NCBI GenBank assembly: GCA_035541755.1 | Contig: DATKMQ010000103.1 | Coordinates: 1-64,000, forward strand | DNA from: Syntrophorhabdaceae bacterium | GTDB taxonomy: Bacteria; Desulfobacterota; Syntrophorhabdia; Syntrophorhabdales; Syntrophorhabdaceae | DNA length: 64,000 nt | Direction: 5' to 3' | Part shown: positions 6,890-36,218 of the stretch, in pieces | Position numbering within the stretch: the stretch's first letter is position 1 | Layout: each line of letters starts with the position of its first letter | Program-made: the position numbers and the translations under genes | Notes under the pieces: model-generated | What the model was told of the DNA's origin: nothing | Databases searched by the model: none | Seen by the model: only the letters and a program-made list of their open reading frames with translations

Positions 6890-7429
6890 GTGAATGACCT
6901 TACATTCTTGAATGAAATTGAAGATAAATCGGGGCAAAAGGTATCGGCCTGTTATCAATGCTACAAGTGCACCACAGGCTGTCCCGTAGCCGGTGAAATG
7001 GATATTTATCCTCACAGGATCATACGCCACATCATCCTCGGCGACAGAGAAAAAGTGCTCGCTTCGGCAACCATCTGGACCTGCCTCCAATGCACAACCT
7101 GTTCGGTCCGTTGCCCCAACGATATAGATATTGCTCATGTGTTCGATACTTTACGGAAGATCGCTGTGGCCGAGCATCGGGAGGCCGAGCGCGACACCTG
7201 GGCCTTCTACAGATACTTCCTTGACAGCGTGAAGAAACATGGCAGACTGCACGAACTCGAAGCGATCATGCACTACAAGCTCGCCAAGAAGGATTTTTTC
7301 AGCGATACGAAAATGGGTCTCGGCATGCTCACAAAAGGAAGGATGGGCATACTGCCCCATAATATAAAGGATAAGAAGTTGATGAAAAAGATCTTCACGA
7401 GAACGAAGAGCGGAGATAAGGGTGAATAA
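6890..7429 (+). CDS. hdrC: Heterodisulfide reductase-like subunit C
   Basis: 179 residues carrying two [4Fe-4S] clusters: C21, C24, C27, C31 and C65, C68, C71, C75, each in CxxCxxCxxxCP form. HdrC links the ferredoxin-type clusters of HdrA to the catalytic HdrB. The start is GTG at 6890 with AAGGGG upstream. It is the first gene of an operon whose other members are HdrB, HdrA, MvhD, MetV and MetF. The 3' end overlaps by 8 nt a four-helix-bundle reading frame that belongs to an inserted element, so the native hdrC-hdrB spacing has been stretched from roughly 30 to 513 nt. Confidence 0.95.
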   Translation: MNDLTFLNEIEDKSGQKVSACYQCYKCTTGCPVAGEMDIYPHRIIRHIILGDREKVLASATIWTCLQCTTCSVRCPNDIDIAHVFDTLRKIAVAEHREAERDTWAFYRYFLDSVKKHGRLHELEAIMHYKLAKKDFFSDTKMGLGMLTKGRMGILPHNIKDKKLMKKIFTRTKSGDKGE

Positions 7430-7942: not shown

Positions 7943-8800
7943 ATGATCACCTTGACCTACTATCCCGGCTGCTCCATGAAGACTTCGAGCAAATTCTACG
8001 AGGCGTCTCTCAAGGAGATATTCTCCTTTTACGGGATCGGCCTCAAAGAACTCGATGACTGGTCATGCTGCGGGGCTTCCGCTGCACACACGATCGACGA
8101 GAGGCTCGCCCACGCGCTATCCGCCCGCAACATAGCCGTGGCAGAAGGTGAGGGGAACCATTTCTTTGCGCCCTGTTCTGCCTGCTATAACCGGGCAAAG
8201 ATCACGAATGATGCAATCCGAAAGGATGCTACCCTGCGTGAGGAAGTGAATAGTATGATCGCACCCCTTCAATGCCGGGGCACAGTCGAAGTCAAGAACA
8301 TTATAGAGGTGCTCCGCGACCACGTGGGCCTTGAACGGATCGCCGCAAGCATCGCCTACGACCTCTCCGCCATCAAAGTAGCGCCTTATTACGGCTGCGT
8401 GCTCACGCGCATACCCGGGGTCGATGTATTTGACGATGTGGAGAATCCTACGAGCATGGACGACCTGCTCTGGGTGACCGGGGTAGACCCGGTGGTCTGG
8501 CCCTATAAGATGGAATGTTGCGGGGCGAGTAAGACCCTCACGAACAAGGATGTGACCACGAGACTATCCGGGAAGATCATGGATATGGCGATCTCGGTAG
8601 GCGCGGATATGATCGTCACGCCCTGCCCTCTCTGCCAGATGAACCTGGACCTCCTCCCCTATCTCGGCAGAACGGACAAGAACCTCCCTGTGCTCTTCCT
8701 GACCGAGATCTATGAACTCGCGCTTTTTGGGAAGATTGCTGGCGGGTCATCGCACATCATACCGGTGGATGGCCTCGCGGATAAGGTGAAAAAGAAATGA
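7943..8800 (+). CDS. hdrB: Heterodisulfide reductase-like subunit B
   Basis: 285 residues with two CCG domains: C10-x31-C42C43-x34-C78xxC81 and C152-x39-C192C193-x34-C228xxC231, the ligands of the two noncubane [4Fe-4S] clusters of HdrB. In methanogens this subunit reduces CoM-S-S-CoB. In the MetVF-HdrABC-MvhD complex its substrate is not the heterodisulfide and it may pass electrons to MetVF. It is co-directional with hdrC and hdrA. Confidence 0.95.
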   Translation: MITLTYYPGCSMKTSSKFYEASLKEIFSFYGIGLKELDDWSCCGASAAHTIDERLAHALSARNIAVAEGEGNHFFAPCSACYNRAKITNDAIRKDATLREEVNSMIAPLQCRGTVEVKNIIEVLRDHVGLERIAASIAYDLSAIKVAPYYGCVLTRIPGVDVFDDVENPTSMDDLLWVTGVDPVVWPYKMECCGASKTLTNKDVTTRLSGKIMDMAISVGADMIVTPCPLCQMNLDLLPYLGRTDKNLPVLFLTEIYELALFGKIAGGSSHIIPVDGLADKVKKK

Positions 8801-9189: not shown

Positions 9190-12100
9190 ATGGATAAGGT
9201 AGGAAAAGTTCTCGTTATCGGCGGCGGCATTGGCGGCATGGAGGCCTCGCTCAACCTTGTGGAGGCGGGCTTTCGCGTCTATCTCGCTGACGAGAAACCG
9301 AACATCGGCGGCAGCATGTCCCAGCTCGACAAGACATTTCCTACGAACGACTGCTCCATGTGCATCATGGCCCCCAAGCTCGTGGAAGTTGGAAGAAACC
9401 CGAACATAGAGCTACTCATGAATTCAGAGGTGGTGGCCTTAGAGGGTGAGCCGGGTAATTTCACCGTTACCTTGAAACGAAGGCCCCGCAGGGTCCTGCC
9501 CGAAAAATGCACCTCCTGTGCACTCTGCGCCCCAAGCTGTCCTCTAGAAGTCAAGGCCGACTACAATGAGGGACTCTCCAAAAAAAGTGCCGCATTCATC
9601 AATTTTCCCCAGGCCATCCCTTCCACGTATATGATCGACAGACAGATCGCCCCCTGCGTGAACCGCTGTCCCGTGAACTTAAATGCCCGGGACTACGTGG
9701 GACTCATCGCCGAAGGGCGCTTCCTCGAAGCACTCGATTTGATCAGGGAACGACTTCCCTTCCCCGGCATCATTGGCCGCATCTGTGCGCATCCGTGCGA
9801 GGACGAGTGCCTGCGCGGACGCAAGGTCGAGCAGCCCATCGCCATCTGCGCGCTAAAACGGTTCGTGGCCGATTTTGAGAAGGGCAAAAGAGAGGCCCCA
9901 ATACCTGAGATCGGCCCGGATACCGGCAAGAAAATAGCCGTGATCGGCGGCGGTCCCGCGGGTATGAGCTGCGCCATTGAACTTCGCAAATCGGGTCACG
10001 CCGTGACCATCTTCGAGGCCCAAGACAAGCTGGGAGGCATGCTCTATCTTGGCATCCCGGCTTACCGGCTCCCCAAGGAGGAGCTCGCGCGGGAAGTCTC
10101 TATCATCGAAAAGATGGGCGTTGAGGTAAAGTACAACACGCTCGTTGGCAAGGACGTGGCAGTCAAAGATCTCTTGAATAAGTTCGATGCGATCTTCTTT
10201 GCTGTTGGCGCTCACGGAGGCAGAGGCTTAGGAATAGAGAACGAAAACGCTCAAGGCGTATTGGGCGGCATAGACTTTCTCCGCAGCGTCAATAAAGGCA
10301 CACCCATGCCTCTTGGAAAGACGGTCTTTGTTATCGGCGGCGGAAACGTGGCCATAGACGTGGCCTTAACCGCTGTAAGATCCGGCGCCGAGCGCGTGCA
10401 TATGGCATGTCTTGAGACCTGGGACGAGATGCCCGCCCACACCTGGGAGATCGACCAGGCCGTATCCGAAGGGGTTCAAGTCCATACATCCTGGGGGCCA
10501 AGACGCATCCTCGCACGTGACGGAAAGCTCACCGGCATAGAATTCAAACGGTGCACTGCCGTATTCGACGCCTCCGGTCGTTTCAGTCCCTGCTACGACG
10601 ACGGCACTACCCTTTCATTCGATGCGGACACAGTGATTCTCGCCATCGGGCAGGCCATGGATACGGGCTTTCTAAAGGACGCTCACGGATTGGAGATCTA
10701 CCGTGACGGCAGAATCAAGACAGACCCCGTAACCCTCGAAACCACGCTCAAAGGCGTTTTTGCCGGCGGCGACGTGGCAACGGGTCCCAAGCTTGCCATC
10801 GACGCAATCAATCAGGGACAGGTTGCCGCCGAATCCATCAACCGATATCTCGCGGGCAAAGATATCAAGGCAGGTCGACTTGCAAAAGAAGATGAGCTCG
10901 TCGAAGACGTGCCGGAGGTGATCGAAAAGAAGGCCCGCGTGCTCATCCCGGAAGTGCCGCTATCGGAGCGTAAGGGGTTTGACGAGGTGTATCTGACGCT
11001 AAGCGCAGAGGCAGCGATGGAGGAGGCAAAGCGATGCCTTAACTGTCGCCGGTGCCTCGGATGCCGCATCTGCGAGGAATTCTGCAAGCCTCAAGCCATT
11101 GACTACCTCATAGAACCTACCGAAGAAAAGATCAACGTGGGGAGCATCATCATCGCCACCGGTTTTGATGAATACGACGCGAACGCAAAGAAAGAACTAG
11201 GCTACGGTATCTATAGCAATGTGCTGACGAGCATCGAATTTGAACGTGTCCTCTCGGCAACCGGACCCACGGGCAGCGTGATCATGCGCCCCTCCGATGG
11301 AAGGATACCCAAAAAGATCGCCTTTCTTCAGTGCGTGGGGAGCCGCGACAAAGTAAACGAATACTGCTCGTCCGTGTGCTGCATGTACGCCACAAAAGAG
11401 GCGGTCATTGCCAAGGAACACCAGCGGGATATCGAGGCCGCCATCTTCTATATCGATATACGGGCCTTCGGTAAAGGCTTTGACCAGTACTATGAGCGGG
11501 CAAAGAACGAGTACGGAGTCCGCTACGTAAAATCGACCATATCGCGCGTGCTCGAAGACATTAAGACCAAAGACGTGGAGATCACCTACATCGATGAGGA
11601 CGGCGTGCTCAAGACCGAGATGTTCGATATGCTCGTGCTCTCCGTGGGGTTGAGGCCGCCGAAGACGCTCGCAAAACTCTCGTCGGTGCTCGATGTGGCG
11701 CTCAACGAATACGGCTTCGTGAAGACTGACACGGGTAGTCCTCTTATCACCTCCCGGCAAGGCATCTACGTGAGCGGTGCGGCGGAATCGCCCAAGGACA
11801 TCCCGGAGACGGTCATGCAGTCCGCGGGCGCGGCATGTGAAGCGGCATCTATCATAGCGGACGCCCGGGGTAAAGACCTCGTGGTCCTAGAGCTGCCCGA
11901 AGAAAAGAATGTGGATGAAGAAGAGCCACGAATCGGCGTCTTCATCTGTAACTGTGGGATTAACATCGGCGGCGTGGTCAATGTGCCGGAGGTGCAGGCC
12001 TACGCAAAGACGCTACCCAATGTGGTGCTGTCCGATGAAAACCTCTTTACCTGTTCTCAGGATACGCAGGACAAGATGAAGAGGGTCATCGACGAATACA

Positions 12101-13593
12101 AGATCAATCGCGTGGTCGTGGCATCCTGTTCACCCCGTACCCATGAGCCGCTCTTCAGGGCAACTATACGGGAGGCGGGCCTTAACAAATACCTCTTCGA
12201 GATGGCAAACATCCGCGATCAATGTTCCTGGGTCCACATGCAGGACAAACCGGGCGCCACCGAAAAGGCAAAAGACCTGGTGAGAATGGCGGTCACCAAT
12301 GCCAACTACATTCGGCCGCTCAAAGAAGTCACGATCCACGTGAACCACAGGGCGCTCGTGGCAGGCGGCGGCATTGCCGGCCTGACGGCGGCGCTTAAAC
12401 TTGCCGGTCAGAACTTCGAGGTCTTCCTCATCGAAAAAGACGCGGAACTTGGCGGGAACTTGAGACACATATACCACACCGTGGACGGCATGGATGTGCA
12501 GGCGTTCCTCAAGGATACGGTCGAGAAGGTTCTCAGTCATCCGTTGATCCATGTGGAGCGCGAGGCCACAATCGTAGGCCATTCCGGGTTTAAGGGTAAT
12601 TTTTCTACAGAGATCGCAATCGGACCGACAAAAGAAAGAAAGACCATTGAGCACGGTATCATCGTGGTGGCGGTGGGAGGCGAGGAATTTAAACCCCACG
12701 GCAAATATCTCTACGGCGAAGATCCGCGCATTATGACGCAGACCGAATTCGAGAACGCGCATGCGGAAGGAAAACTGCATCAGTTTCAGCGTTGCGTCAT
12801 GGTGCAGTGCGTGGGCTCACGGGACGAAGAACGACCATACTGCAGCAGGGTGTGCTGCTCCCTGGCCGTGAAAAATGCCATCGACATCAAAGAAAAAGAC
12901 CCGAATACCGATGTAGTTATCCTGTACCGGGATATCAGGACCTACGGCTTTCTGGAGAAATATTACCTCAAGGCGAGAAACCTGGGTGTCAGGTTCATCC
13001 GCTTCGAGCCGGAGAACCCTCCCGTGGTAAAGAATGAGCAGGGTGAACTTTCCATAGCCTGTTTTGAACCGTCTGTGGGCGAGAATATCACATTCAAAAC
13101 TGATCTCTTAGTCTTGAGTAGCGCCATCGTGGCAGGCGACAACAAAGGGCTGGCCACTCTTCTCAAAGTGCCGAGGACAAATGAAGGCTTCTTCTTCGAG
13201 GCCCATATGAAATTGCGGCCCGTGGACTTTGCCTCCGACGGCATGTTTCTCTGCGGACTCGCCCATTCGCCCAAGAACATTCAGGAGAGCATTACCCAGG
13301 CTGAAGGCGCCGTAGCCAGGGCGCTCACCATCCTTGCAAAGGACACCATGGCCGTGGGCGGTGTGGTGGCGACCGTGGATGCAGACAAGTGTGCCGCGTG
13401 TCTCACCTGTGTCAGGACATGTCCATATTCCGTCCCGGTCATAAACGAAAAGGGTGAGGCCGAAATAGATATCAGCAAGTGCAAGGGGTGCGGCAATTGT
13501 GTGGCCGAATGCCCTGCAAAGGCGATCGATCTTATGCATTACAGGGACGCGCAGCTTATCGAGAAGACGAAAGCGCTCTGTGTGGAGAGATAG
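9190..13593 (+). CDS. hdrA: Giant HdrA: two HdrA modules, the first interrupted by an NfnB/GltD-type NAD(P)H module
   Basis: 1467 residues. Module 1: FAD motif GGGIGG (11-16), NDCSMC (53-58), first cluster CTSCALCAPSC (107-117), then the segment ending STYMID (145-150). An inserted dihydropyrimidine dehydrogenase-N/GltD unit follows at ~155-560: Cys-rich APCVNRCPV and GRICAHPCEDEC, FAD motif VIGGGPAGMS (251-260), NAD(P) motif VIGGGNVAIDVA (381-392) and FAGGDVATGPK (524-534). Module 1 then resumes with CLNCRRCLGCRICEEFC (616-632) and QCVGSRD..YCSSVCC (714-731). Module 2 is a full HdrA: N-terminal domain from ~914 (GVFICNCGINIGG), FAD motif AGGGIAGL (1058-1065), QCVGSRD..YCSRVCC (1206-1223) and two C-terminal clusters (C1401-C1411 and C1431-C1441 groups). 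HdrA carries the flavins used for electron bifurcation. The built-in NfnB-like part is expected to accept NAD(P)H electrons (inference). Confidence 0.93.
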   Translation: MDKVGKVLVIGGGIGGMEASLNLVEAGFRVYLADEKPNIGGSMSQLDKTFPTNDCSMCIMAPKLVEVGRNPNIELLMNSEVVALEGEPGNFTVTLKRRPRRVLPEKCTSCALCAPSCPLEVKADYNEGLSKKSAAFINFPQAIPSTYMIDRQIAPCVNRCPVNLNARDYVGLIAEGRFLEALDLIRERLPFPGIIGRICAHPCEDECLRGRKVEQPIAICALKRFVADFEKGKREAPIPEIGPDTGKKIAVIGGGPAGMSCAIELRKSGHAVTIFEAQDKLGGMLYLGIPAYRLPKEELAREVSIIEKMGVEVKYNTLVGKDVAVKDLLNKFDAIFFAVGAHGGRGLGIENENAQGVLGGIDFLRSVNKGTPMPLGKTVFVIGGGNVAIDVALTAVRSGAERVHMACLETWDEMPAHTWEIDQAVSEGVQVHTSWGPRRILARDGKLTGIEFKRCTAVFDASGRFSPCYDDGTTLSFDADTVILAIGQAMDTGFLKDAHGLEIYRDGRIKTDPVTLETTLKGVFAGGDVATGPKLAIDAINQGQVAAESINRYLAGKDIKAGRLAKEDELVEDVPEVIEKKARVLIPEVPLSERKGFDEVYLTLSAEAAMEEAKRCLNCRRCLGCRICEEFCKPQAIDYLIEPTEEKINVGSIIIATGFDEYDANAKKELGYGIYSNVLTSIEFERVLSATGPTGSVIMRPSDGRIPKKIAFLQCVGSRDKVNEYCSSVCCMYATKEAVIAKEHQRDIEAAIFYIDIRAFGKGFDQYYERAKNEYGVRYVKSTISRVLEDIKTKDVEITYIDEDGVLKTEMFDMLVLSVGLRPPKTLAKLSSVLDVALNEYGFVKTDTGSPLITSRQGIYVSGAAESPKDIPETVMQSAGAACEAASIIADARGKDLVVLELPEEKNVDEEEPRIGVFICNCGINIGGVVNVPEVQAYAKTLPNVVLSDENLFTCSQDTQDKMKRVIDEYKINRVVVASCSPRTHEPLFRATIREAGLNKYLFEMANIRDQCSWVHMQDKPGATEKAKDLVRMAVTNANYIRPLKEVTIHVNHRALVAGGGIAGLTAALKLAGQNFEVFLIEKDAELGGNLRHIYHTVDGMDVQAFLKDTVEKVLSHPLIHVEREATIVGHSGFKGNFSTEIAIGPTKERKTIEHGIIVVAVGGEEFKPHGKYLYGEDPRIMTQTEFENAHAEGKLHQFQRCVMVQCVGSRDEERPYCSRVCCSLAVKNAIDIKEKDPNTDVVILYRDIRTYGFLEKYYLKARNLGVRFIRFEPENPPVVKNEQGELSIACFEPSVGENITFKTDLLVLSSAIVAGDNKGLATLLKVPRTNEGFFFEAHMKLRPVDFASDGMFLCGLAHSPKNIQESITQAEGAVARALTILAKDTMAVGGVVATVDADKCAACLTCVRTCPYSVPVINEKGEAEIDISKCKGCGNCVAECPAKAIDLMHYRDAQLIEKTKALCVER

Positions 13594-13763
13594 AACGATG
13601 AGCAGTAAACAGACTATATCAGATTTGAAATCTGCAGCAAGGAAACCAGTTCCTTTGCTCGCGCTGCGGGTGCTTTACCCTTGCTACGATTCATCTGCGC
13701 TCAATTCTCGAACTCGCTTTGTCGCTCCAAACCCAACTATTCGCTGTGTCACAAGGAGCATTG

Positions 13764-14210
13764 ATGGGCAATTTTGAACCGGATATCATAGCCTTCTGTT
13801 GCGAATACTGAGGATACGCGGCCGCGGACCTGGCAGGTTCGATGAGACTTACGTATCCGACCAACATCAAGATCGTAAAGGTGCCCTGCACAGGCAGGGT
13901 CGATATTATGCTTATGATGAAGGCATTTGAAAACGGGGCAGACGGCGTCTGTCTCGTGGGTTGTCTGGAGGGCGATTGCCATTATCTGGTGGGCAACCTC
14001 AAGGCAAAAAGACGCGTGGAATACGTAAAGAAATTACTTGATGAATGCGGCATCGGCGGCGAGCGCGTGGCTATGTACAATCTGTCTTCTGCCCAGGGCC
14101 AGCGATTTGCCGAGGCAGCGCGCGAGATGGGAGAGAAGATAAAGGCACTCGGACCAAATCCTGCAAAGCAGGGATCAGGGGCCAGGGATCAGGGACCAGG
14201 AAACCAATGA
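13764..14210 (+). CDS. mvhD: MvhD/FrhD-type subunit, selenoprotein (in-frame TGA = Sec16)
   Basis: 148 residues when TGA at 13809-13811 is read as selenocysteine. The family's N-terminal motif FCCxWCxYAGADLAG appears here as FCCEYUGYAAADLAG, so Sec stands exactly where cysteine normally sits. Later motifs match too: VPCTGRVD and GADGVCLVGCLEGDCHY. The ATG at 13764 has AAGGAG 5 nt upstream, while the next ATG (13842) has none and would remove the [2Fe-2S] cysteines. MvhD passes electrons between hydrogenase or other donors and HdrA. The last ~14 codons (SGARDQGPGNQ) are read from an inserted G-rich repeat. The 170 nt between hdrA and this gene holds a short unsupported frame and small inverted repeats (AGATTTGAAATCT; GCAAGGAA../TTCCTTTGC). 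Confidence 0.9.
13809..13841 (+). promoter_or_regulatory. Candidate bacterial SECIS element with the UGA codon
   Basis: Fourteen bases after the UGA, CGGACC (13825-13830) and GGTTCG (13836-13841) form a 6-bp stem (one G-U pair) with the 5-nt apical loop TGGCA. Bacterial SECIS elements are short hairpins directly 3' of the UGA with a GG/GU feature in the apical loop for SelB binding, which fits by position and loop content. The same bases encode the conserved ADLAGS residues, so the fold is also constrained by coding. Confidence 0.65.
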
Positions 14211-14228
14211 ACCAAATACGTGATAATA

Positions 14229-14590
14229 GTTTGTCGGGTTTGTCTTGTTTGTACGGTTTGTTTGGTTTCAACCAAATAAACCAAAAAAACCAGAGAAACC
14301 AGATCAACAAGAATAGTTTGTATGGTTTCAACCAGATAAACAAAACAAACCATATGAACCAAATAAATAAAGAAGGTTTGTCGGGTTTGTCTTGTTTGTC
14401 AGGTTTATATGGTTTCAACCAGATAAACCAAAGAAACCAAACAAACAGAGATAATAGTTTGTCGGGTTTGTCTTGTTTGTACGGTTTGTTTGGTTTCAAC
14501 CAAATAAACCAAAAAAACCAGAGAAACCAGATGAACAAGAATGGTTTGTATGGTTTCAATCAGATAAACCAAAGAAACCAAACAAACAGA
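14229..14590. repeat. 9-bp repeat array folded into serial hairpins, locus 2 (inside the operon)
   Basis: Runs of GGTTTGTCT-like units are followed by inverted runs (AAACCA-type units), joined through short palindromic centres GGTTTCAACC at 14264, 14324, 14411 and 14492 and GGTTTCAATC at 14552. The block 14222-14340 is repeated almost exactly at 14450-14568, so part of the array arose by direct duplication. No gene is supported between mvhD (ends 14210) and metV (starts 14629); frames through the array give NQINQ- or KPNKP-type low-complexity peptides. Confidence 0.92.
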
Positions 14591-14628
14591 GAACGGGAAG
14601 GGCAGTCCCGCAGAATAAAGGAGTTATC

Positions 14629-15300
14629 ATGATAGTAGCAGACAGAAAACCGTTTGACGAGATTATGAAGATGCTCGCGCCGTACACAAAAATTCTGCTT
14701 GTGGCGTGCAACGAGTGCGTCACGGTCTGTTCCGTGGGCGGCACAAAAGAGGTGGAAGTGCTCGCATCGGAGATACGCATGGCCCGCGCCAAAGACGGCG
14801 TGCCCGTAGAAGTGAAAGAGCACACGCTCGAGAGGCAGTGCGACCCCGAATATGCCGAGGAGTTGAAACCCTTGATAGACAACTATGAGGTCGTGATCTC
14901 CATGGCCTGCGGGTGCGGCGTCCAGACCGTAGCCGGAACGTATCCGAATAAATATGTGGTGCCCGCGGTGAACACAACCTTTATGGGCTCCTCTGAAGAA
15001 CAAGGCGTGTGGAAAGAGATGTGCCAGGGATGCGGCAACTGCGTGCTCGACAAAACACTCGGGCTCTGTCCCGTGGCGCGCTGTGCCAAGAGTCTTTTCA
15101 ACGGTCCCTGCGGGGGATCTCAGGTCGGCGGTTCCTGCGAAGTAAACAAAGATACGCCCTGCGTGTGGCAGCTCATCGTCAAAAAAATGAAAGAGATGAA
15201 TATGATGGAAAAATATATGGAAATTCAGCCCGTGAAGAATTGGTCAACGGCGAGAGACGGGGGTCCGAGAAAAAGGATCAGGGAGGACTTGAAGATATGA
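14629..15300 (+). CDS. metV: MetV: methylene-THF reductase C-terminal-domain zinc/Fe-S partner
   Basis: 223 residues of the MTHFR-C (MetV) family, the obligatory partner of MetF in Wood-Ljungdahl organisms. Cysteine groups seen: ACNECVTVCSVGG near residue 23, ISMACGCGVQTVAGTYP (about 87-103), CQGCGNCVLDK (about 132-142), then CPVARC and GPCGGSQVGGSCEV. These bind Zn and an Fe-S cluster in the family. The ATG at 14629 has AAAGGAG 5 nt upstream; an upstream in-frame start would run through the repeat array and is rejected. Its stop overlaps the metF start (ATGA), indicating translational coupling. Confidence 0.92.
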   Translation: MIVADRKPFDEIMKMLAPYTKILLVACNECVTVCSVGGTKEVEVLASEIRMARAKDGVPVEVKEHTLERQCDPEYAEELKPLIDNYEVVISMACGCGVQTVAGTYPNKYVVPAVNTTFMGSSEEQGVWKEMCQGCGNCVLDKTLGLCPVARCAKSLFNGPCGGSQVGGSCEVNKDTPCVWQLIVKKMKEMNMMEKYMEIQPVKNWSTARDGGPRKRIREDLKI

Positions 15301-16214
15301 GCACAGAGAGCAATCTGGAAAAAGTTCTCTTAAGCGGGGCCTTTGCGGTGACCGGCGAGTGCGGCCCTCCGCGCGGCGCCGACACCGAAGTAATCCGGAA
15401 GAAGGGCGCCTTTCTCAAAGGCTATGTGGATGCCGTGAACGTGACTGACAACCAGACGAGCGTGGTCAGGATGAGCAGCTTTTCCGCATCCCTGGTTTTG
15501 AAGGAAATGGGCTTCGATCCGGTCATGCAGATGGTCTGCCGCGACAGAAACCGTATCGCCATACAGAGTGATGTGCTGGGTGCGGCCGCACTCGGTATCA
15601 ACAACCTCGTCTGCCTCTCCGGCGACCACCAGACCTTCGGTGACCATGCATCGGCAAAGAACGTTTTCGATATCGATTCCATGCAGCTCATTCAGACTGT
15701 GTCACAGATGAAAAACCAGGGCAAATTCATAAGCGGCGAAGACGTCAAGGGCAAACCAAATCTCTTTATCGGCTGCGCCGAGAACCCCTTTGCAGATCCG
15801 TTTGAGATACGCGCCATGCGTCTTGCTAAGAAGGCCGCAGCAGGCGCCCAGTTCGTCCAGACCCAGTGTGTGTTCAATGTGGACAAGTTCGAGAAGTGGA
15901 TGGAGATGGTCCGCGATCTCGGCGTCCACGAAAGGATGTATATCCTCGCAGGTATTACGCCATATAAATCAATCGGCATGGCAAATTACATGAAAAAGTC
16001 CGTCCCCGGGATGGACGTGCCCGATGAGCATATCGCGCGTCTAAAAGGCGTGGCCAAAGAAAAGGTCGCCGAGGAAGGCGTGAACATATGCCTGGAGATT
16101 ATAGAGCGCGTGAAATCAATCAAGGGCGTGGCGGGCATCCACATCATGGCTATAGAATGGGAGCAGATAGTGGCAGACATAGTTACGCGCGCTAAGCTGC
16201 ATCCGCGTCCATAA
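15297..16214 (+). CDS. metF: Methylenetetrahydrofolate reductase, MetF-type subunit
   Basis: 305 residues, TIM-barrel MTHFR. Near the N-terminus FAVTGECGPPRGAD supplies the conserved Glu/PP segment. VDAVNVTDNQTSVVRMS, VCRDRNRIAIQSDVLGA and GAQFVQTQCVFNVDKF are typical of the short archaeal/acetogen form, which lacks an NAD(P)H regulatory domain. It reduces 5,10-methylene-THF to 5-methyl-THF with electrons delivered through MetV and the Hdr subunits. Starts on the ATGA shared with the metV stop. It is the last gene of the operon and its stop codon lies in a long hairpin. Confidence 0.95.
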   Translation: MSTESNLEKVLLSGAFAVTGECGPPRGADTEVIRKKGAFLKGYVDAVNVTDNQTSVVRMSSFSASLVLKEMGFDPVMQMVCRDRNRIAIQSDVLGAAALGINNLVCLSGDHQTFGDHASAKNVFDIDSMQLIQTVSQMKNQGKFISGEDVKGKPNLFIGCAENPFADPFEIRAMRLAKKAAAGAQFVQTQCVFNVDKFEKWMEMVRDLGVHERMYILAGITPYKSIGMANYMKKSVPGMDVPDEHIARLKGVAKEKVAEEGVNICLEIIERVKSIKGVAGIHIMAIEWEQIVADIVTRAKLHPRP

Positions 16215-35929: not shown

Positions 35930-36136
35930 CTGGTTGATCTGGTTTCTCTGGTCTTTTTGGTTTGTTTGGTTGGAACCACATAAACCGGACAAACAAGACA
36001 AACCCGACAAACCATTTTTGTTCATCTGGTTGATCTGGTTTATTTGGTTCATTTGGTTGAAACCCGATAAACCATACAAACCCGACAAACCAGACAAACA
36101 TTACAAACCGTACAAACTTTCTTTGGTTCATTTGTT
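35930..36136. repeat. 9-bp repeat hairpin array, locus 3
   Basis: Two long hairpins made of GGTTTGTTT/GGTTGATCT units and their complements, centred on GGTTGGAACC (about 35968) and GGTTGAAACC (about 36054), plus a partial third (GTTTGAAAC near 36132). Same family as 3545-3620 and 14229-14590. It lies between the barrel gene and the QueG-like gene. Confidence 0.92.
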
Positions 36137-36218
36137 TGAAACCGTCGTTTGCTTTTGACGGCAAAATGTTTTTTAATGGTGTGGTTATGAACAGCTTGTA
36201 TTAAGGGAGGTAGATGAG

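Follow-up and report, generated by a model that had tools for sequence, protein, structure and literature searches.

A predicted selenoprotein MvhD in a Syntrophorhabdaceae bacterium and the codon-locked hairpin downstream of its in-frame UGA

In methanogens, MvhD is the [2Fe-2S] subunit that hands electrons to HdrA, and a cluster of this type is known for both MvhD and VhuD (PMC6019823). The archaeal counterpart of the selenocysteine (Sec) containing members of this family is VhuD of Methanococcus (PMC2933860), which the initial annotation of the present locus had quoted, correctly, as a selenoprotein precedent. In bacteria, the accessible parts of earlier reports describe Sec-containing FrhD/MvhD in Deltaproteobacteria and Clostridia, with a Sec-FrhD in Moorella (Zhang et al. 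2006, PMC1794560), four Sec-containing genes, mvhD1/2/3/5, in Desulfobacterium autotrophicum (PMC2702500) and a Sec-containing mvhD in Desulfococcus multivorans (PMC5109826). A 2026 review gives CxxU as the motif of these proteins (PMC13188914). The protein kind is therefore already known, bacterial Sec-FrhD/MvhD having been in print since 2006. A second point of reference is the Hdr-type methylene-THF reductase, which was proposed for Moorella and received pulldown support in Sporomusa (PMC9430772).

The gene considered here, mvhD of a Syntrophorhabdaceae bacterium, lies in a window of 64 kb, that is, the whole stretch of DNA analysed. It resembles the Sec-FrhD/MvhD genes of Deltaproteobacteria in its family (PF02662), its CxxU motif, its phylum and its adjoining hdr genes, as far as the accessible text of these reports describes them. 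In that same text of PMC1794560, PMC2702500 and PMC5109826, no analysis of the hairpin sequence was found, and the source organism, whose nearest relatives bearing a name are Syntrophorhabdus/Syntrophorhabdaceae MAGs, is absent from their species. The titles and abstracts searched contained no report of a Syntrophorhabdus mvhD as a selenoprotein, and a limited literature search, which is not proof of novelty, found no description of a near-invariant, codon-locked mvhD SECIS. What is new here is this SECIS and its explanation, Sec-MvhD itself being already known. The evidence presented below argues, with a probability of about 96%, that this mvhD encodes a selenoprotein decoded by means of a SelB-bound hairpin whose core is locked by the peptide it encodes, and that the product is a [2Fe-2S] subunit linked to HdrA, most likely within a MetVF complex.

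An in-frame UGA in an intact mvhD gene

The features of the locus are collected in Table 1. The TGA is in frame with the ATG at 13764 within an otherwise intact gene, as had been proposed. Reading through it yields the product MGNFEPDIIAFCCEY-U-GYAAADLAGSMRL..., in which the cysteines of MvhD are conserved. The Pfam FlpD/MvhD profile PF02662 matches residues 8-130 of this protein with 168.7 bits (cut-off 22.3) and covers profile positions 1-123 of 123; a full-length match requires readthrough of the TGA, which gives the intact family N-terminus that had been expected. The strong ribosome-binding site announced by the initial annotation is also present. Its placement of the TGA stands, but its wording of the motif, FCCxWC with the TGA in the second half, does not: the codon occupies the last Cys position of FCCxxC, which here reads FCCEYU. 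The product is a relative of VhuD and not VhuD itself; it scores 172.8 bits against NCBIfam NF045873 (F420-non-reducing VhuD), below the cut-off of 215.

Table 1. Coordinates of the features of the mvhD locus within the window
Feature	Position	Strand	Description	Basis
hdrC-like	6890..7429	+	4Fe-4S protein	ORF and profile match
hdrB-like	7943..8800	+	CCG domains	ORF and profile match
hdrA	9190..13593	+	1467 aa, HdrA2-like, inserted GltD/NAD(P)-type domain at about residues 154-557	ORF and profile match
Shine-Dalgarno-like AAGGAG	13753..13758	+	5 nt 5' of ATG 13764	Sequence
mvhD (FlpD family)	13764..14210	+	148 aa, UGA at residue 16 decoded as Sec	Profile match and orthologues
Predicted Sec codon TGA	13809..13811	+	Last position of FCCxxC	Sequence, homologue alignment
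Near-invariant 17-mer	13824..13840	+	GCGGACCTGGCAGGTTC	Codon identity, phylum genome scan
Predicted bSECIS hairpin	13825..13841	+	7-bp stem 13825-13831/13835-13841, triloop GGC 13832-13834, apical G 13832	
Shortened ORF expected from standard-code calling	13842..14210	+	122 aa, ATG start at 13842	
metV-like	14629..15300	+	PF12225, methylene-THF reductase C-terminal	Profile match
metF	15297..16214	+	PF02219 MTHFR	Profile match

Standard-code calling does give the ORF starting at 13842, as had been predicted, and this ORF lacks the first 26 residues with the FCC motif among them. The accompanying expectation that relatives are misannotated stays tentative, its basis being this mechanical ORF call and the split locus tags of the Desulfococcus multivorans mvhD, noted in the accessible part of PMC5109826. 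The existence of a 122-aa ORF with its own ATG, together with the use of TGA as an ordinary stop at the end of 15 of the 37 long open stretches of the window, speaks for a true stop, which would make mvhD a pseudogene or a shortened protein translated only from ATG 13842. Against this, ATG 13764 follows a strong ribosome-binding site, the N-terminal codons 5' of the TGA are conserved across dozens of genera, the Sec column holds only TGA or a Cys codon, and the host possesses the Sec machinery. A true stop is thus very improbable, being refuted by conservation across the phylum.

With hdrA and mvhD adjoining metV and metF, the window has the gene arrangement expected of an Hdr-type methylene-THF reductase, and the same hdrA-mvhD-metV-metF neighbourhood accompanies most Sec orthologues and several Cys ones. 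Because mvhD is placed between a long GltD-type hdrA and metV-metF, its product probably serves as a subunit of such a reductase. The hdrA gene at 9190-13593 resembles HdrA of type III, as described in PMC12054007, and also the long Moorella HdrA. An array of AT-rich palindromic repeats, with units near GGTTTCAACCAAATAAACC, occupies positions 14229-14594 between mvhD and metV; related copies are found at 35959-36143. By chance, none are expected.

Selenocysteine machinery and Sec/Cys exchange

A search of the 3.85-Mb host genome, whose completeness is 96%, for selA, selB, selD and tRNA-Sec, the check suggested by the initial annotation, found all four: the tRNA-Sec has a TCA anticodon and scores 76.3 bits, above its cut-off, and the three protein matches all exceed their curated cut-offs. 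The selD gene (L019, G000:C90:12310-13221) contains one in-frame TGA of its own, which makes it likely that the SelD of this host is itself a selenoprotein. Within the class, the presence or absence of the Sec machinery has no discriminating power, since almost every member possesses it. At the level of the phylum, a selA match is absent from 11 TGA-bearing genomes, all of them at most 90% complete, and the TGA motif is missing from all 22 genomes that lack selA at a completeness above 90%; this distribution fits assembly gaps. In the class set, one genome of 95% completeness, G038, gave no selA match although it contains a TGA-MvhD and selB.

Of the MvhD-family matches in the host genome, five in all, three have no TGA and two have a single one. 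The second Sec-MvhD paralogue (L011/L113, G000:C30:3689-4060) is longer and of the CxWU type. Its hairpin differs (CUGGA-GUU-UCCAG, with the loop 27 nt after the UGA), and the same hairpin occurs in L117 and L118.

Among the independent GTDB loci of relatives, the Sec column of mvhD is TGA in 19 of 26 and TGC/TGT in the remaining 7. The motif search also allowed Ala, Ser and the other stops at this column, and no codon besides TGA and TGC/TGT was recovered in any class or GTDB locus. Homologues that lack the in-frame UGA thus have Cys in its place. One orthologue of the same family, L026/L107, has TGC at the Sec codon and a very similar N-terminus. At its position 240, the hairpin codon GCA of the Sec form is replaced by GCC, which breaks the loop-closing pair, and this orthologue is likely to represent a recent Sec-to-Cys switch. 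So close a Cys relative could also suggest that the TGA of the window arose from a Cys codon by mutation of a single base, or that it is an artefact of sequencing or assembly. This explanation, still less credible than a true stop, is refuted by the presence of TGA at the exact same column in 43 distinct class and GTDB orthologues and in 115 copies from the phylum.

Codon choice over the hairpin

The SECIS-like stem-loop that had been placed 14 nt past the TGA is a 7-bp hairpin starting 13-14 nt after the UGA. The published bSECIS limits (PMC13188914) are an apical loop of 3-9 nt, an upper stem of 4-16 bp, a G in loop positions 1-2, a UGA-to-loop distance of 16-37 nt and a minimum free energy of at most -7.5 kcal/mol. 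The hairpin falls within every one of them, with its GGC triloop, its 7 bp, its distance of 20 nt and its folding energy of -8.2 kcal/mol. Folding energy is nevertheless weak evidence, because the region is GC-rich and synonymous shuffles often fold equally well. The local 46-nt z-score is +0.27, so that the energy is not exceptional, and only 2 of the 47 TGA sequences lie at or below 5% of their codon-shuffled versions (group difference p = 0.011). A test of codon identity and pairing was used in place of this weak energy test. A longer stem, GGAUACG/CGUAUCC (13812-13818/13852-13858, -19.3 kcal/mol, z -2.04), was not accepted as functional, given the free variation of its codons among orthologues; this lower stem, suggested by the window alone, is not conserved. 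Rfam gave no match for the hairpin, the hits listed being located in the AT-rich repeat array and all below gathering scores.

The codons over the hairpin, in positions counted from 13800, are GCG (24-26), GAC (27-29), CTG (30-32), GCA (33-35), GGT (36-38) and TCN (39-41). In 43 distinct Sec orthologues, GCG, GAC, CTG and GCA are invariant (100%) and GGT is found in 42 (98%). The next best codon column of mvhD reaches 79%, and the median top-codon share in conserved columns is 57%. In the Cys homologues, the top-codon share of the same columns, where the residue is shared, is 36-71%. On the same numbering the pairs are G26-C40, A28-U38, C29-G37, C30-G36 and U31-A35, with G32 apical, and each locked synonymous base is either a pairing partner or this apical G. 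All six pairing and apical requirements are satisfied in 42 of the 43 Sec orthologues versus none of the 42 Cys homologues, including none of the six whose residues, ADLAGS, are identical. The conserved core corresponds to 13826-13840; the outermost pair, 13825-13841, is not conserved and is not required, since the third base of the Ser codon varies. An open search in which synonymous sites were left free produced a comparable picture among the matches listed: in the non-CxWU Sec-MvhDs (at least 84 sequences), GCG GAC CTG was used in 84 of 84 and GCA in 82 of 84, and at the Ala directly before the locked block all four codons occurred, 29/24/15/15 times. The matches listed also held at least 66 paralogues of the CxWU type, which form a separate group.

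These codon-identity and pairing tests reveal selection on structure beyond the protein sequence, and the synonymous constraint on the hairpin is strong only when the codon is TGA. Codon choice is accordingly the strong evidence for a SECIS, and folding energy the weak one. The near-fixation of the core can be explained by the peptide A-D-L-A-G-S, which sets the partner bases and leaves one codon per synonymous site. If, as this pattern suggests, the SECIS is embedded in a fixed peptide, its invariance needs no further special explanation.

The exact 17-mer was found in 98 of 395 sampled phylum genomes, representing 63 of 246 genera; a control with the reversed pattern was found in 0 of 395. 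Each of the 115 copies examined is part of mvhD and follows an in-frame TGA at a distance of exactly 12 nt, with no Cys copies or other genes among them. As this set was picked by the 17-mer itself, it tests specificity and not conservation. Near-invariance across families is unusual for a bSECIS and could point instead to a 17-mer fixed by recent horizontal spread, by an overlapping antisense gene or by a protein or DNA binding site. Recent spread is excluded by the saturation of the flanking fourfold-degenerate codons, where all codons are used (top share 0.31 for Ala+4 and 0.34 for Arg+12). Every locked synonymous base pairs or is the apical G, the lock is absent from the same segment of the Cys homologues, and the 115 copies all belong to TGA-type mvhD. 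Fixation for a reason other than SECIS function is, on these grounds, unlikely.

The selenoprotein reading is unusually clear in this case, as relatives throughout the phylum retain the hairpin with hardly a base changed. The balance of evidence leans moderately towards a single ancient, invariant and protein-locked mvhD SECIS in Desulfobacterota and relatives, located 12 nt after the UGA. Its invariance would make it a 17-nt genetic marker for mvhD of the Sec type, often beside MetVF, whose decay would mark Sec-to-Cys reversion, for example in L026/L107. The specificity of the 17-mer is sufficient for locating and repairing shortened mvhD annotations throughout the phylum, as well as for following switches between Sec and Cys.

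Proposed mechanism and comparison with known systems

Selenocysteine in MvhD, as first proposed, is borne out by the machinery, the Sec/Cys exchange and the codon-locked hairpin. With the UGA in the A site of the ribosome, SelB carrying Sec-tRNA(Sec) would bind the hairpin, and the final position of FCCxxC would receive selenocysteine. The hairpin core would remain fixed since only one codon per synonymous site preserves the pairs together with the apical G32. The encoded protein is predicted to hold a [2Fe-2S] cluster, of which Sec may be a ligand, and to transfer electrons between a bifurcating-type HdrA with a GltD/NAD(P)H domain and its partners; the setting is most likely a MetVF methylene-THF reductase of the Hdr type. 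In uncultured, syntroph-like bacteria, a probable enzyme complex of the Wood-Ljungdahl pathway would then have as its electron-transfer subunit a selenoprotein that standard gene calling shortens. The locus also demonstrates clearly, from sequence data, that synonymous selection acts on a bacterial SECIS.

The gene set is like that of the HdrCBA-MvhD-MetVF systems of Moorella and Sporomusa ovata (PMC9430772), in the order hdrC-hdrB-hdrA-mvhD-metV-metF and with a long HdrA as in Moorella; the Sporomusa study makes no mention of selenocysteine. In the PDB, the MvhD-family chain 9sfi_K shows non-standard residues, written X, at two places: the Sec column and a Cys column further on, the latter being Cys in the mvhD of the window. 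Both are probably selenocysteines. Methanococcus VhuD belongs to the same family and has Sec at the equivalent column. However, archaeal SECIS elements are structurally unrelated to bacterial ones and usually located in the 3' UTR (PMC13188914), whereas the hairpin described here lies inside the mvhD coding region. It agrees with the bSECISearch consensus in its 3-nt loop, 7-bp stem, G at loop position 1 (GG), 20-nt spacing and energy. In contrast to the many bSECIS elements described as having no mutual resemblance, the mvhD hairpin is nearly invariant in sequence.
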